A stretch of 13,729 nt of DNA. Source: Deltaproteobacteria bacterium RBG_13_61_14. Lineage in GTDB: Bacteria > RBG-13-61-14. The notes beneath the pieces are model-generated. The model ran no database searches. It saw nothing but the letters and a program-made list of their open reading frames with translations, and was not told the origin of the DNA. Each line of letters opens with the position of its first letter. Position 1 is the first letter of the stretch. The position numbers were made by a program, and so were the translations under genes. Positions 7,467 to 13,698 of the stretch are shown here, piece by piece. The stretch covers positions 51,790 through 65,518 of the forward strand of contig MGQK01000063.1 in NCBI GenBank assembly GCA_001797815.1. The letters are read 5' to 3'.

Positions 7467-9812
7467 ATGGCTATCAACGAAGCTGACACCTGCAGAAAGT
7501 ATGTTCTGCCCAAACTTTATGCTTCCGGGTGGAACGACGACCAGATCAGCGAACAGCGCACCTTTACCGACGGCCGCATCATGGTCGCGGGAACCAAGGT
7601 TTGGCGTGGCAAACAGAAGCGCGCTGACTACCTGCTGCGCTATCGGCCCAATCTCATGGTGGCAGTGGTTGAAGCAAAGGCCTCGCACAAGAATCCCGGC
7701 GAAGGTCTCCAGCAAGCGAAAGACTACGCCCAAATTCTCGATCTTAAATTTGCTTACGCCACCAACGGCCACGGCATTGTCGAGCACAATTTTTTAACGG
7801 GCAAGGAGTCCAACCTTAATACCTTCCCCACCCCCGAGGAACTGTGGAAACGCCTTCACGCCACTCTTGGGCTAAGTAGCGAGGATCATGAACAGCGATT
7901 CCTCGCGCCCACGTTGCCGGTTATTGGCAAGCCGCTTCGCTACTACCAGGAAATCGCCATCAATCGGGTCATCAAGGCAATCTTGAGCGGCCAGCAGCGC
8001 GTGTTGGTCAACATGGCCACCGGCACGGGCAAGACCGATGTAGCTTTTCACATTTGCTGGAAGCTTTGGAACACCCGCTGGTCTCGAACCGGGGAGCCGC
8101 GCCGCCCGCGCATCCTATATCTTTCGGACCGGTCGATCCTTGTGGATGACCCAAAGGACAAGCAGTTCGCGCCCTTCGGCGATGCCCGCTGGAAGATACA
8201 AGGTGAGGCCATTCCGAGCCGCGAGATGTATTTCGCCACCTATCAGGCCATTGCCAAGGATGAGCGACGGCCGGGCCTTTATCGCGAGTACAGCCCTGAG
8301 TTCTTCGACCTGATAGTGGTTGACGAATGTCATCGCGGCAGCGCTCGCGACGAGAGTAACTGGCGGGAGATTCTCGAGTATTTCAAGCCCGCTTATCAGT
8401 TGGGCATGACGGCAACCCCGCTGCGCGATGAGAACCGGGACACCTACGCCTATTTCGGCAGTCCGGTTTACACCTACAGTCTGCGGCAGGGCATAGACGA
8501 TGGATTCCTTGCTCCTTACCGGGTTCATCGCATCGTCACCGATGTGGACGCCACCGGCTGGCGTCCAACTAAGGACGAGCTAGACCGTTATGGTCGCCCG
8601 ATTCCGGACGAAGAATATCAAACCCCGGACTTTGAAAAGATTGTAGCCCTCAGAGCGCGCACCCAGGCAATTGCCGCGAGCATCACGGATTTTTTGCGCA
8701 GGAGCAACCCCTTTGATAAAACCATCATCTTCTGCGTTGACCAGGAGCACGCGGACGAGATGCGCCAGGCGGTTAATAACCTCAGCGCTGACTTTGTCCG
8801 TGAGCACCCTGATTATGTGGTCCGCATCGTCTCGGACGAAGGCGATATCGGACGCGGTCATTTGAGCCGGTTCCAGGAAATCGAAACAACGACCCCGGTG
8901 GTGGTAACAACCTCAAAACTTTTAACCACCGGCGTTGACATGCAGACCTGCAAGAACATCGCCATCGTCCGAGTGATCAACTCCATGACCGAGTTCAAGC
9001 AAATCATCGGCCGGGGCACCCGGGTTCGCGCCGATTATGGCAAGCTCTGGTTTTCTATCCTTGATTACACCGGCAGCGCAACCCAGCACTTTGCCGACCC
9101 GGATTTTGACGGAGACCCGATTGACCCGCCCATTGATATACCCATTTCGGAACCAATCCCGCTACCGGAACCCGAGCCGGAACCTGAACCGCCGGCAGAA
9201 CTTGAAGGCGGCCTTACTCCTGAACAGCCGGAACCGACACTTCGTAAATTTTATGTTGACGGGGGCGAGGTCAGGATTGCCGCTCGTATTGTTTATGAAC
9301 TGGATTCCAGCGGCAGACAGCTCCGGGTGGTAAAATTCACTGATTACGCTTCTGAGCAAATCCGGAGCCTTTACACCTCTGGCGCGGAGCTAAGATCCCA
9401 TTGGAGCAACGCCGAGGAGCGGGCAGAAATCATCAATTCGCTTGAAGAACGCGGCATCGCCCTTAAGCAACTGGCAGAGAATGCAAACCAGCCGGATGCA
9501 GACCCCTTTGACCTGCTCTGTTACATTGCTTACAATGCTCCGCTCCGCACCCGGCGCGAGCGTGCAGAAAAGCTCTGCAAAGGAAAAATCGACTTCTGGT
9601 TCCAGTTTCAGCCGGAGGCGCGTAAAATTCTGGAGGAAATCCTGGATAAATATATTGAGCATGGCACCGCCCAGTTCAAAATCCCGGAAATCCTAAAAGT
9701 TCCTCCGATTTCAGAACACGGCAATGTTATGGAAATTGCCGGCAAGTTTGGCGGACCTGACCCGTTACGCAAGGCCCTGGAACAGATGCAATCGCTCTTA
9801 TACGAAGCATAA
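7467..9812 (+). CDS. hsdR: Type I restriction enzyme, R (restriction/translocase) subunit, EcoEI-like
   Basis: This is the motor and nuclease subunit of a Type I R-M complex: it translocates DNA using ATP and cuts unmodified DNA away from the recognition site. The 781-residue protein has an N-terminal PD-(D/E)XK nuclease with Asp54 (RADYLL), Glu69 and Lys71 (VVEAKAS) and the QxxxY motif Q83-Y87 typical of Type I nucleases. Superfamily 2 helicase motifs follow: ATGTGKT (184-190), DECH (286-289), TAT in GMTATPLR (315-317), and QIIGRGTRV (512-520). A Pro/Glu-rich linker (about 551-580, including PEPEPEPEPP) precedes the C-terminal helical domain that docks onto the M and S subunits. All motifs are intact. 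Order and length fit the EcoEI-type (Type IB-like) family. It is the first gene of the operon; its SD is weak. A strong SD for the next gene overlaps its stop codon. Confidence 0.95.
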   Translation: MAINEADTCRKYVLPKLYASGWNDDQISEQRTFTDGRIMVAGTKVWRGKQKRADYLLRYRPNLMVAVVEAKASHKNPGEGLQQAKDYAQILDLKFAYATNGHGIVEHNFLTGKESNLNTFPTPEELWKRLHATLGLSSEDHEQRFLAPTLPVIGKPLRYYQEIAINRVIKAILSGQQRVLVNMATGTGKTDVAFHICWKLWNTRWSRTGEPRRPRILYLSDRSILVDDPKDKQFAPFGDARWKIQGEAIPSREMYFATYQAIAKDERRPGLYREYSPEFFDLIVVDECHRGSARDESNWREILEYFKPAYQLGMTATPLRDENRDTYAYFGSPVYTYSLRQGIDDGFLAPYRVHRIVTDVDATGWRPTKDELDRYGRPIPDEEYQTPDFEKIVALRARTQAIAASITDFLRRSNPFDKTIIFCVDQEHADEMRQAVNNLSADFVREHPDYVVRIVSDEGDIGRGHLSRFQEIETTTPVVVTTSKLLTTGVDMQTCKNIAIVRVINSMTEFKQIIGRGTRVRADYGKLWFSILDYTGSATQHFADPDFDGDPIDPPIDIPISEPIPLPEPEPEPEPPAELEGGLTPEQPEPTLRKFYVDGGEVRIAARIVYELDSSGRQLRVVKFTDYASEQIRSLYTSGAELRSHWSNAEERAEIINSLEERGIALKQLAENANQPDADPFDLLCYIAYNAPLRTRRERAEKLCKGKIDFWFQFQPEARKILEEILDKYIEHGTAQFKIPEILKVPPISEHGNVMEIAGKFGGPDPLRKALEQMQSLLYEA

Positions 9813-9817
9813 GGAGG
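9812..9817 (+). promoter_or_regulatory. Shine-Dalgarno of the DUF4268 gene
   Basis: AGGAGG begins at the last base of the hsdR stop codon and lies five bases before the ATG at 9823. It fixes this start and argues against an upstream in-frame ATG at 9724 inside hsdR. It is the strongest SD in the R-M operon. Confidence 0.88.
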
Positions 9818-9822
9818 ATTCC

Positions 9823-10812
9823 ATGGAAAAGGCGCTTGGATCGCTTCAACCGATTGATATCCGAGAGTTTTGGGATGATGAAGCTCGTGAATTTACTCCC
9901 TGGCTTGCAAAACCCAAAAACCTGGAACGGCTTTCTTCTACTTTGGGCATGGAACTTGAGCTGGAGGGGGTCGAAGTGCCAGTCGGCCCGTATAAAGCCG
10001 ATATCGTTGCGCAAGACATATCATCTAATAGTCGTGTTATAATCGAGAATCAACTAGATGACACCGATCACGGCCACTTGGGCAAGTTGATCACCTATGC
10101 ATCCGGCCTGGATGCCAAAATCATTATTTGGATTTCGAGAAACTTCACTGATGAGCACCGGCGCGCTATTGATTTCCTGAATGAGAATTCCGCTCCCAAC
10201 CTGCGCTTTTGGGGCCTTGCCATAAAGCTTTTCCGAATTGGCGACTCTATGCCCGCTCCGATGTTTGAGATTGTGGCAAGTCCAAATGACTATCTGGCAA
10301 GTGTTAAAGTTGACGATAAGGTTCCTTCTGAAACAAAAGCCTTGTATTTAAAGTTCTGGACTGCATTTAAGGATATCTGTTCGAGTCAGGGCACTTTATT
10401 AAGCCTGCGAAAACCGAAAGCGCAGCACTGGTTTTCAATGGCTGTCGGGCGAGGCAAGTTCTCGCTAAGCTTAACCGCAAGTGTTCAGAAAAAAAGAGTC
10501 GGTTGTGAAATCTATATGCGCGGCAAAAACGCCAAGACAGCCTTCAAACTTTTAGAGAAAGATCGCAAGACAGTTGAAGCCGTCACTGGACCATTAGACT
10601 GGCAAGAGCTACCAGACGGACAAGATTGCCGAATTTTTCTTGCCCATCCTGATGCCGACATATCAAACCAAGCTAATTGGCCGAAAGAGTTTGAATGGCT
10701 CAAGGAAAAAGCCGAGTTATTTCACAAAGTTTTCTCACCAATAATTAAGCGTTTACCGATTATGGAAGCAGATGCCGAAGAAGAAGCAAACTCAGAAAAG
10801 GAAGAAACTTAA
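9823..10812 (+). CDS. DUF4268-family protein with PD-(D/E)XK-like nuclease site, embedded in the R-M operon
   Basis: A 329-residue cytosolic protein. Its N-terminal half contains VPVGPYKADIVAQD (Asp60), then VIIENQLDDTDHGHLGKL (72-89) followed by ITYASGLDAKIIIWIS. This pattern is that of the DUF4268 family, with a nuclease-like fold in which E75-N76-Q77 takes the place of the E-x-K of classical PD-(D/E)XK enzymes. Glu44 or Glu47 could be a further ligand. The C-terminal half (about 165-310) looks like a separate alpha/beta domain with FWTAFKDI, WQELPDG and EWLKEKAELF. The tail is acidic (about 315-329). It begins ten bases after hsdR and its stop codon directly abuts the hsdM ATG, so it is an operon member rather than a passenger. 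One sampled line here (10321-10380) has 21 of 60 G or C, the lowest I noticed in the operon. Nuclease activity is inference; an accessory subunit or a second, independent defence factor are both possible. Confidence 0.88.
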   Translation: MEKALGSLQPIDIREFWDDEAREFTPWLAKPKNLERLSSTLGMELELEGVEVPVGPYKADIVAQDISSNSRVIIENQLDDTDHGHLGKLITYASGLDAKIIIWISRNFTDEHRRAIDFLNENSAPNLRFWGLAIKLFRIGDSMPAPMFEIVASPNDYLASVKVDDKVPSETKALYLKFWTAFKDICSSQGTLLSLRKPKAQHWFSMAVGRGKFSLSLTASVQKKRVGCEIYMRGKNAKTAFKLLEKDRKTVEAVTGPLDWQELPDGQDCRIFLAHPDADISNQANWPKEFEWLKEKAELFHKVFSPIIKRLPIMEADAEEEANSEKEET

Positions 10813-12348
10813 ATGGTGCGGAAAAAGAAAGTAGATGCTCCCCAGACCACCGCGCAATCGCTTGGCAGCTTGATTAAATCCTGCCGCGATATTATGCGCA
10901 AGGATAAAGGTTTGAGCACGGATATTGACCGCTTGCCCATGCTCACCTGGATCATGTTTCTAAAGTTCCTGGATGATATGGAGCAGATGCGCGAGGCCGA
11001 GGCCAAAATTGCAGGCAAGAGATTCCGACCAGCCATAGAACCCCCTTACCGCTGGCGCGACTGGGCGGCCAAGCCGGATGGGATCACCGGAGACGCGCTG
11101 ATCTCTTTTATCAATAACGAGGAACCCGCTCTGCCGGACGGAACCAAAGGCCCCGGCCTGTTTGCCTATCTCCTTTCCTTGCATGGGGCAAATGGCGGTG
11201 ACCGCCGCGATGTTATCCGGACCGTTTTCCATGAAATAAACAACCCCATGCGAAGCGGTTTTTTGCTCAAGGATGTGATCAATAAAATCAATGGAATTCA
11301 TTTCACTTCCTCCGAAGAAATCTTTACCCTCGGCCATCTCTATGAATCCATGCTAAAGCAAATGCGTGATGCCGCTGGTGAAAATGGAGAATTCTATACT
11401 CCCCGGCCCGTTGTCAAATTCATTGTGACGGTTATCAATCCCAAGCTAGGCGAGACCATCCTGGACCCTGCCTGCGGTACCGGCGGATTTTTGGCAGAAG
11501 CTTACGATCGCATCAAGAAACAATGTAAAAAAACGGAAGACAATAAGCTACTCCAGCGCGAAACCCTTTTTGGGATCGAAGCCAAGCCCCTGCCTTACCT
11601 CTTGGTCCAGATGAACCTGCTTCTGCACGGCTTGGAATATCCCAACATAGACCCCTTAAATGCCTTGCGTTTCCCGCTCCGCGAAATCGGAGATAAAGAC
11701 CGGGTGGATATAGTAATAACCAACCCGCCCTTTGGCGGCGAAGAAGAAAAAGGCATCCAGGGCAATTTCCCAGAGGACAAGCAGACCGGGGAAACAGCAT
11801 TGCTATTCCTCCAATTGATTATGCGCAAGCTCCGCCGGACTCCCAAACCCGGAAGGGCCGCGGTGATCGTTCCCAACGGCACTTTATTCGGTGATGGAGT
11901 ATGCGCGAGAATAAAGGAAGAATTACTCAAGGAATTTAATCTCCATACCATCGTCCGCCTGCCCAATGGAGTGTTTGCGCCTTATACCGGCATCCAGACC
12001 AATATCCTGTTCTTTGACCGTAAAGGTCCGACCAAACAAATCTGGTATTATGAACAGCCTTTGCCCGAGGAACGGAAAAATTACACCAAAACTCATCCTA
12101 TCCAGTTTGAGGAATTTTCAGGCTGCCTGGCCTGGTGGAAAAAACGCGAAGAAACCGAGTTTGCCTGGAAAGTCAGCGCCGAAGAAATACTTGCCAATAA
12201 CTGCAACCTCGACCGCAAGAATCCCAGCGCCAAAGACGACATAACCCACCTCCCGCCCGAGCAACTCGCCGACGATATCCTCAAAAAGGAGCAACGCATC
12301 GCTGAAATAATGGCGGAAATCAAAACCGTTCTGGCGATAAAATCATGA
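10813..12348 (+). CDS. hsdM: Type I R-M system DNA methyltransferase (N6-adenine), M subunit
   Basis: This subunit methylates the N6 of adenine in the recognition site and forms, with HsdS, the core M2S1 methylase to which HsdR binds. The 511-residue protein has the N-terminal helical HsdM domain (about 10-165, with MLTWIMFLKFLDDME), then EFYTPRPVVKFIV (193-205). The SAM-binding motif I is LDPACGTGGFLAEAYD (217-232) and the catalytic motif IV is NPPFGG (304-309), NPPF being that of N6-adenine gamma-class enzymes. IVPNGTLFG and RLPNGVFAPYTGIQTNILFF follow as in the family. The C-terminal helices (about 480-505) would contact HsdS. The ATG immediately follows the TAA of the DUF4268 gene, with AAGGA about ten bases upstream. 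Its own stop overlaps the hsdS start. All motifs are intact, so the methylase should be active. Confidence 0.96.
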   Translation: MVRKKKVDAPQTTAQSLGSLIKSCRDIMRKDKGLSTDIDRLPMLTWIMFLKFLDDMEQMREAEAKIAGKRFRPAIEPPYRWRDWAAKPDGITGDALISFINNEEPALPDGTKGPGLFAYLLSLHGANGGDRRDVIRTVFHEINNPMRSGFLLKDVINKINGIHFTSSEEIFTLGHLYESMLKQMRDAAGENGEFYTPRPVVKFIVTVINPKLGETILDPACGTGGFLAEAYDRIKKQCKKTEDNKLLQRETLFGIEAKPLPYLLVQMNLLLHGLEYPNIDPLNALRFPLREIGDKDRVDIVITNPPFGGEEEKGIQGNFPEDKQTGETALLFLQLIMRKLRRTPKPGRAAVIVPNGTLFGDGVCARIKEELLKEFNLHTIVRLPNGVFAPYTGIQTNILFFDRKGPTKQIWYYEQPLPEERKNYTKTHPIQFEEFSGCLAWWKKREETEFAWKVSAEEILANNCNLDRKNPSAKDDITHLPPEQLADDILKKEQRIAEIMAEIKTVLAIKS

Positions 12349-13529
12349 GCACGGCTTGGCCTAAAGTGAGGTTGGGAGAGGTGCTCCGAGAAGAGCGGGA
12401 GAAAATCGGATCTTTCGATGGTGATTCACTTCCCGTTTTTGGCGTCACTAATATCGACGGCGTTACCCAGACCGGTATCGAAGCAAGCGCGGACAAGTCC
12501 AACTACTTCCGACTCCGGCCCAACCGGTTTGTTTATAACCCTTACCGGATAAATGTCGGTTCACTAGGGCTTTCTTCTTCTGAACAGGACGGTATTGTTA
12601 GTCCTGCGTATGTTGTTTTCGGAACAAACGAGCGCCTTGACACGCAATTCTTACTGTATTTCTTGAAGAGCGCTCAAGGCAACCAACTTATCAACTTCCA
12701 CGGCAACCGAGGCTCTGTTCGTTCCGCTTTGCGGTTTACTGACCTTAGCCAGATCGAAATCCCCTTGCCTCCTTTGGCGGAACAACGGCGGATCGTGGCG
12801 CGGATCGAGGCACTGGCCGCCAAAATTAATGAGGCAAATAAACTTCGAGAACAAGCCGCCGAAGAAGCCGAGGCGATGTTGTCCTCGTCAATTTCAACCA
12901 TATGCTGGGATTCTTCTTCGCGAGTTGTTCTGCTGGGTGAAATCATCGGGGAGGACTCTTTAAGTAATGGGAAGTCCATTAAGCCTGCAGAGACTGGCGA
13001 TGGAATCCGTTGCCTCACGCTGTCCGCGATTCGCAAAGGGCGAATCGACATGACTTGTACAAAGTCCGTGCCATTGACCTCCATTGAAGCGCAGCCGTTC
13101 TTGGTCAGAAAGAACGACGTTTTCATCGTGCGTGGAAACGGTAGCAAAAACCTGTGCGGCCTTGCCGGTCTGGTAGAAAAGCAAGAGCCAAAAGTCATAT
13201 TCCCGGACTTGTTTATCAAAGTCCCTCTGCCATCCGACCAAATTATCCCTGAGTTTTTTGTTGCCGTTTGGAATTCATCGGCAACTCGAGAGGTTATCGA
13301 GGAGAAGGCCAGGACCACGTCTGGTATTTGGAAAATCAATCAAGGACATATCACATCAACGTCGATTCCCGTCCCCCCTCTACCTGAACAACGTCGGATC
13401 GTTGCGTATCTGGATGGGTTGCAGGCGCAGGTGGACGCATTGAAAAAACTGCAATCCGAGACTGCCGCGGAACTCGACGCCTTGCTCCCTTCCATCCTCG
13501 ACCGCGCCTTCAAAGGAGAACTCTGTTGA
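12345..13529 (+). CDS. hsdS: Type I R-M system specificity subunit
   Basis: This subunit recognises the bipartite DNA target and holds the complex together. The 394-residue protein has two target-recognition domains (about 1-138 and 192-338), each followed by a conserved helical region: IPLPPLAEQRRIVARIEAL (139-157) and IPVPPLPEQRRIVAYLDGL (341-359). The two TRDs do not look alike, so a split asymmetric target is expected; it cannot be read from sequence. TRD1 shows FVYNPYRINVGSLGLSS and VSPAYVVF, a style common in HsdS. TRD2 has FLVRKNDVFIVRGNGS. The ATG overlaps the hsdM stop by four bases (ATGA), giving coupled M-S synthesis. The C-terminus ends SILDRAFKGELC, the usual HsdS ending, so the gene is full length. 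Near-identical DNA in the two conserved regions could allow recombination between TRDs. Confidence 0.95.
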   Translation: MSTAWPKVRLGEVLREEREKIGSFDGDSLPVFGVTNIDGVTQTGIEASADKSNYFRLRPNRFVYNPYRINVGSLGLSSSEQDGIVSPAYVVFGTNERLDTQFLLYFLKSAQGNQLINFHGNRGSVRSALRFTDLSQIEIPLPPLAEQRRIVARIEALAAKINEANKLREQAAEEAEAMLSSSISTICWDSSSRVVLLGEIIGEDSLSNGKSIKPAETGDGIRCLTLSAIRKGRIDMTCTKSVPLTSIEAQPFLVRKNDVFIVRGNGSKNLCGLAGLVEKQEPKVIFPDLFIKVPLPSDQIIPEFFVAVWNSSATREVIEEKARTTSGIWKINQGHITSTSIPVPPLPEQRRIVAYLDGLQAQVDALKKLQSETAAELDALLPSILDRAFKGELC

Positions 13530-13628: not shown

Positions 13629-13698
13629 AGGCTTTAGGCATTAGGTGGCTTAGGCTTTAGTCTAAAGCCTAAAGTCTAATGTCTAATGTCTCAAGCCT
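13629..13698. repeat. Second inverted heptamer array (AGGCTTT/AGACATT) with central palindrome
   Basis: Plus-strand units AGGCTTT, AGGCATT, an irregular AGGTGGCTT and AGGCTTT run to 13660. From 13662 the units are in the opposite orientation (on the minus strand AGGCTTT, AGACTTT, AGACATT, AGACATT, then a degenerate one). The junction is a perfect palindrome with 11-base arms TTAGGCTTTAG (13650-13660 and 13662-13672) around a single T. It is the same repeat family as 6296-6412, but here the arms almost touch. It could form a hairpin in RNA from either strand and might end hsdS transcription, though no long T-run follows. Confidence 0.78.

Follow-up and report, generated by a model that had tools for sequence, protein, structure and literature searches.

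Results

Gene order at the locus

The window, a stretch of 13,729 nucleotides from the genome of Deltaproteobacteria bacterium RBG_13_61_14 (contig MGQK01000063.1, positions 51,790 to 65,518), was found to carry four tightly packed genes on the same (+) strand. The hsdR gene (7467–9812, +; complete, with TAA at 9810–9812) encodes a 781-aa Type I restriction subunit of the EcoAI/FtnUII family (NF046051, E=0, 1021 bits; EcoEI_R_C, ResIII), which has its own N-terminal nuclease motif, ADYLL...VVEAK, and a weak HSDR_N match at aa 47–98. It is separated by ten bases (9813–9822, +; GGAGGATTCC) from the gene studied here, and a perfect Shine-Dalgarno sequence, TAAGGAGG, lies within this junction and overlaps the hsdR stop codon. 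The embedded gene (9823–10812, +; ATG at 9823, TAA at 10810–10812) encodes a 329-aa predicted two-domain nuclease of the PDC-S11/DUF4268 type. Zero bases separate its stop codon from the ATG of hsdM at 10813. The hsdM gene (10813–12348, +) encodes a 511-aa Type I methyltransferase (N6_Mtase, E=1.5e-66; HsdM_N) and overlaps hsdS (12345–13529, +), the gene of a 394-aa specificity subunit with Methylase_S matches in two stretches, by the ATGA at 12345–12348. HsdM and HsdS are both complete, so that an intact restriction-modification (R-M) set surrounds the additional gene. The position between hsdR and hsdM and the two unequal junctions had been described in an original prediction, with exact coordinates.

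The program-called open reading frame of the embedded gene begins at 9724, within hsdR; the family alignment and the Shine-Dalgarno sequence support a start at 9823. The R-M operon is flanked by ordinary genes, and further downstream on the contig are genes that we take, from our own reading of their translations, to be YidC-, MnmG- and RsmG-like. Just past hsdS, at 13629–13690 of the window, there is a short AT-rich repeat with the inverted arms TTAGGCTTTAG and CTAAAGCCTAA; an 18-base piece of it had 11 copies in the genome with at most one mismatch, compared with 0 for the reversed control.

Family assignment and conserved residues

The PADLOC profile of PDC-S11 matched the 329-aa protein at full length (E=3e-113; aa 1–310 on a 318-position model), and three of the four PDC-S11 models covered aa 1–311 (3.2e-113, 3.2e-105 and 1.1e-76). 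PDC stands for PADLOC defence candidate, a candidate class (PMC12813430), and PDC-S11 is only a computational, unvalidated single-gene candidate. The PADLOC entry is stand-alone, whereas the window copy lies between hsdR and hsdM. In a Pfam hmmscan, the protein matched DUF4268 (PF14088) alone, at E 4e-28 and over aa 174–307 rather than its whole length. NucS_C (PF01939) was matched neither by this protein nor anywhere in the window's genome, and a search of relatives gave weak matches only, which were left out of the profile comparison. No NCBIfam model matched the protein. Neither the window protein nor the family profile had a true match among PDB sequences, NADH dehydrogenase matches at E 0.35 being chance hits; NucS was not found by the family-profile search.

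Conservation was assessed in an alignment of 47 full-length homologues with 28–42% identity to the window protein, in which the conserved residues cluster in the N-terminal half. Invariant positions were W27, L28, E75, N76, Q77, H83, H85, G87, W103, H112, N120, I139, S142 and P154. D60, E20 and Y92 were each kept in 46 of the 47, D60 being absent from one member, and position 88, a lysine in the window protein, was K or Q in every homologue. The original prediction had singled out D60 and E75-N76-Q77 as a nuclease site; a coincidental string is ruled out by the presence of the triplet in 47/47 and of D60 in 46/47 homologues, the most distant of which has 28% identity.

A predicted NucS-like nuclease domain

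An AlphaFold2 model built from a 39-sequence alignment, with plasmid-derived rows left out, had a mean pLDDT of 92 and a pTM of 0.66. Its N-terminal domain (about aa 15–135; 9865–10227, +), delimited by VIA-align matches to EndoMS/NucS and by conservation, has the alpha-beta-beta-beta-alpha-beta order of PD-(D/E)XK nucleases (H13–41, E45–54, E57–65, E70–77, H84–95, E100–105). The best structural matches of this domain were EndoMS (5gke; Z 11.5, rmsd 2.4, 105 aa) and NucS (2vld; Z 11.4, model residues 19–135 on chain residues 126–231), well above the other VIA-align matches; other PD-(D/E)XK enzymes followed, including PaqCI, N.BspD6I, BamHI and Shedu. The PD-(D/E)XK-like fold that had been proposed was thus recovered, with D60 and E75 in the motif and glutamine at the lysine position in 47/47 homologues.

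The active site of Pab NucS comprises E127, D160, E174, K176, Q187 and Y191 (PMC7343888), to which E20, D60, E75, Q77, K88 and Y92 of the window protein probably correspond, a pairing derived from alignment ranges and spacing (offsets of 107 falling to 96) rather than from a printed residue alignment. With this pairing, each NucS site position has an identical or conservatively exchanged residue, apart from that of the catalytic lysine, which is a glutamine. The kinship with NucS suggested here rests on predicted structure and motif spacing. Compared with EndoMS/NucS, the window protein shares the predicted fold of the C-terminal catalytic domain, where the E, D, E and Q/KxxxY positions line up, but has glutamine for the catalytic lysine, an added C-terminal DUF4268 and no PF01939 sequence match. 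In the model and its structural alignments, the N-terminal DNA-binding and dimerisation domain of NucS is absent and the catalytic domain opens the protein at about aa 15.

DUF4268 as a separate module

The DUF4268 domain occupies about aa 173–314 (10339–10764, +), as judged by Pfam and structure matches. The gene had originally been called a DUF4268 nuclease; its nuclease character holds, but is located in the N-terminal NucS-like domain, and DUF4268 is a separate C-terminal module. The C-terminal domain resembled YbjN and type III secretion chaperones (3kxy, Z 8.3, and 6vu7, Z 8.0, by VIA-align; 3kxy, E 5e-4, by Foldseek), a weaker match that may reflect a common arrangement only.

In genomes located with the same profile, DUF4268 was the C-terminal part of several other kinds of protein: GmrSD_N/GmrSD_C proteins in L285 and L289, a GmrSD_N protein in L286, and CBS/DUF7662 proteins in L102 and L288. 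GmrSD-DUF4268 fusions have been reported earlier (PMC4619093). These Type IV fusions have DUF4268 in common with the window protein but use GmrSD_N/GmrSD_C (DUF262/DUF1524) as their nuclease; by Pfam, the window protein lacks both domains and has a NucS-like PD-(D/E)XK domain instead. In addition, a 477-aa protein (L290:2157–3587, −) has an HSDR_N nuclease-like domain fused to DUF4268, possibly a stand-alone restriction enzyme made from a Type I nuclease domain. Because the domain is common to different restriction nucleases, it more likely serves in targeting, sensing or assembly than in catalysis. One contig held several broken PDC-S11-like reading frames (L287:2591–11960, +), and a 1086-aa protein of this locus resembled DUF4268 weakly over one stretch and matched nSTAND below the threshold.

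Distribution of the family and its Type I neighbours

As a scan of contigs with one protein gave 3 loci only, the survey relied on profile searches of whole genomes; at phylum level, the search around the window's genome covered 3 genomes only. Counting partial matches, 38 of 386 genomes sampled across the domain contained the family, as did 31 of 395 from one other phylum, and there were also matches on 75 plasmids and 75 viral contigs. Most homologues on chromosomes, plasmids and viral contigs were free-standing, without R-M genes, and some of these adjoined housekeeping genes. A search for a conserved partner among 103 immediate neighbours found no family in more than 3 of them; among the commonest were Type I methyltransferases (two) and PDC-S26 (two).

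Type I-like genes lay within the fetched flank of 25 of the 139 homologue loci, and a co-directional Type I gene within 300 bp of nine, two of which were near-copies. As flank lengths differ and some contigs are short, both counts, which cover the PDC-S11/DUF4268 family alone, are lower bounds. Gene orders varied widely (X-M-S, R-M-S-X, S-M-X, X-M, X-M-S-R, S-R-X, R-X and M-S-X-R, where X is the family member), and R-X-M-S was seen only in the window among the loci examined; no fixed position between hsdR and hsdM emerged from the 139 loci. The C-terminal types of the adjacent HsdR proteins included T1RH-like, EcoEI-like and others, and L216, where the distance is 509 bp, has an EcoR124-type HsdR. 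In a quick tree of 114 rows, with many weak branches, the 8 operonic rows formed no single clade and required at least 6 label changes, which indicates several independent associations with Type I genes.

The hsdR-hsdM junction in related operons

To place the window arrangement among its relatives, we compared 40 EcoAI-type hsdR loci, taken from the genomes already sampled, and a profile search at E 1e-3 found no family member in any of them. A distantly related long form in R-M-S-X order (L077) lay outside these 40. R was followed by M on the same strand in 22 loci; the gap was at most 66 bp in 18 and 305–374 bp in two. In the remaining two of the 22, both EcoAI-type operons, hsdR and hsdM are separated by an AbiEi/AbiEii toxin-antitoxin pair (L172:7327–8819, −; L180:7398–8872, −), which takes the same slot as the window nuclease. 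Among the five closest relatives of the window R protein (L169–L173; 57–65% identity, L180 being more distant), the junction was empty in L169, L171 and L173 (about 14, 50 and 20 bp), held the AbiE pair in L172 and was lost at the contig end in L170. The empty or AbiE-holding junctions of these relatives make the hsdR-hsdM junction look like a site of accessory defence gene turnover. In another EcoAI-type operon, DUF1016_N and RhuM-family genes were observed between hsdM and hsdS (L160:6816–8272, +).

The embedded gene also differs from its surroundings in base composition. Its GC is 0.455 and its GC3 0.45, compared with 0.55 and 0.64 for hsdR, 0.51 and 0.59 for hsdM, and 0.51 and 0.55 for hsdS, and GC3 in three neighbouring genes is 0.82–0.89, far above that of the nuclease gene. 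This low GC would fit a separate acquisition; codon constraint could also account for the value of 45%.

Discussion

The reading that we favour, with a probability of about one half, is that the gene encodes an autonomous two-domain PDC-S11/DUF4268 defence nuclease and is cargo of a complete R-M operon, lodged at its hsdR-hsdM junction and co-expressed with it. The gene would have been inserted at this junction of an intact three-gene EcoAI-family operon, and its product would share the promoter and translation of the operon yet act independently. The N-terminal domain with its E-N-Q variant site most likely cuts DNA, as its NucS-like site suggests, while DUF4268 most likely directs or switches the cutting by recognizing some feature of the DNA or a protein of the phage; it may also mediate oligomerisation. 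The host would gain a further line of defence, independent of the Type I enzyme, against DNA that this enzyme fails to stop. A defence role is suggested by the PDC-S11 status, the patchy and mobile distribution, the Type I adjacency and the company that DUF4268 keeps in fusions. The catalytic activity, the DNA substrate, the defence function and the role of DUF4268 are all putative.

The tight junctions of ten and zero bases had raised the idea of a stoichiometric fourth subunit, an accessory cleavage or self-protection factor joining HsdR, HsdM and HsdS in an undescribed four-gene Type I variant. This we regard as very improbable. HsdR already has a nuclease motif of its own; the gene is absent from the closest sampled R-M operons and from all 40 sampled EcoAI-type hsdR loci; and the family is mostly free of R-M genes, occurs at almost any position where it adjoins them, and has partners from several HsdR families, at scattered points of its tree. 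Of the roles originally proposed, a separate nuclease alongside the R-M system fits best, a fit that covers its carriage and not the proposed protection by the same methylation. A looser dependence is conceivable, in which an intact Type I complex would keep the nuclease inactive and a phage that inhibits or bypasses the complex would set it free, by analogy with PrrC in ecoprrI. Such control is a tentative suggestion, in line with the tight co-translation with hsdR and hsdM, the recurrent Type I adjacency in the family, the AbiE pair that a close relative has at this junction and earlier examples, namely the Type IC locus with its PrrC and R-M-coupled accessory genes (PMC12707154). It cannot be the general mode of the family, since most members have no R-M neighbour; the HsdR families and positions vary, and the operonic members form no clade. 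For embedded copies such a role is possible. The nine homologues abutting Type I genes also fit a functional link, and it is likewise speculative that the embedded nuclease is coupled to the Type I enzyme, with DUF4268 sensing failure or inhibition of restriction before DNA is cut.

Two further alternatives concern the nuclease domain itself. As its closest fold is that of EndoMS/NucS, a mismatch repair nuclease, and some free-standing copies adjoin housekeeping genes, the protein might be a repair or structure-specific nuclease that is a chance passenger without a defence role. This seems unlikely given the patchy distribution (38 of 386 genomes), the presence on plasmids and viral contigs, the fusion of DUF4268 to restriction nuclease domains and the missing DNA-binding domain of NucS. 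Cleavage is not assured, because every aligned member has glutamine for lysine, and one lacks D60; a catalytically dead PD-(D/E)XK relative that only binds DNA or protein would explain this. We consider it rather improbable, as the whole E-D-ExQ-(K/Q)xxxY set is kept at 28–42% identity and other restriction enzymes can be active with variant residues in this motif. ExQ active sites exist, for example in BglII. In AvaII, Q161 is a metal ligand (PMC7337904).

Accessory genes within Type I operons are already known. The rlo genes are R-linked ORFs in Type I loci of Campylobacter jejuni (as cited in PMC4619093) and, like prrC in ecoprrI, are non-subunit genes inside hsd operons; their proteins differ from the window nuclease, RloF carrying DUF262 and PrrC being a tRNA anticodon nuclease. 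The autonomous cargo nuclease of the window would therefore be a further example of this arrangement. If the coupling considered above were true, the operon would combine restriction with a back-up nuclease of its own, and selection for this coupling would explain why different Type I families captured such genes repeatedly and independently. More generally, PDC-S11, a widespread candidate family, now has a concrete predicted nuclease fold, active site and two-domain layout, and point mutants can be chosen from the predicted active site. DUF4268 is a module common to unrelated restriction nucleases, which makes its targeting or sensing role testable by domain removal. Together with the AbiE pairs of its relatives, the embedded nuclease points to the hsdR-hsdM junction as a place where accessory defence genes enter the operons of this R-M lineage.
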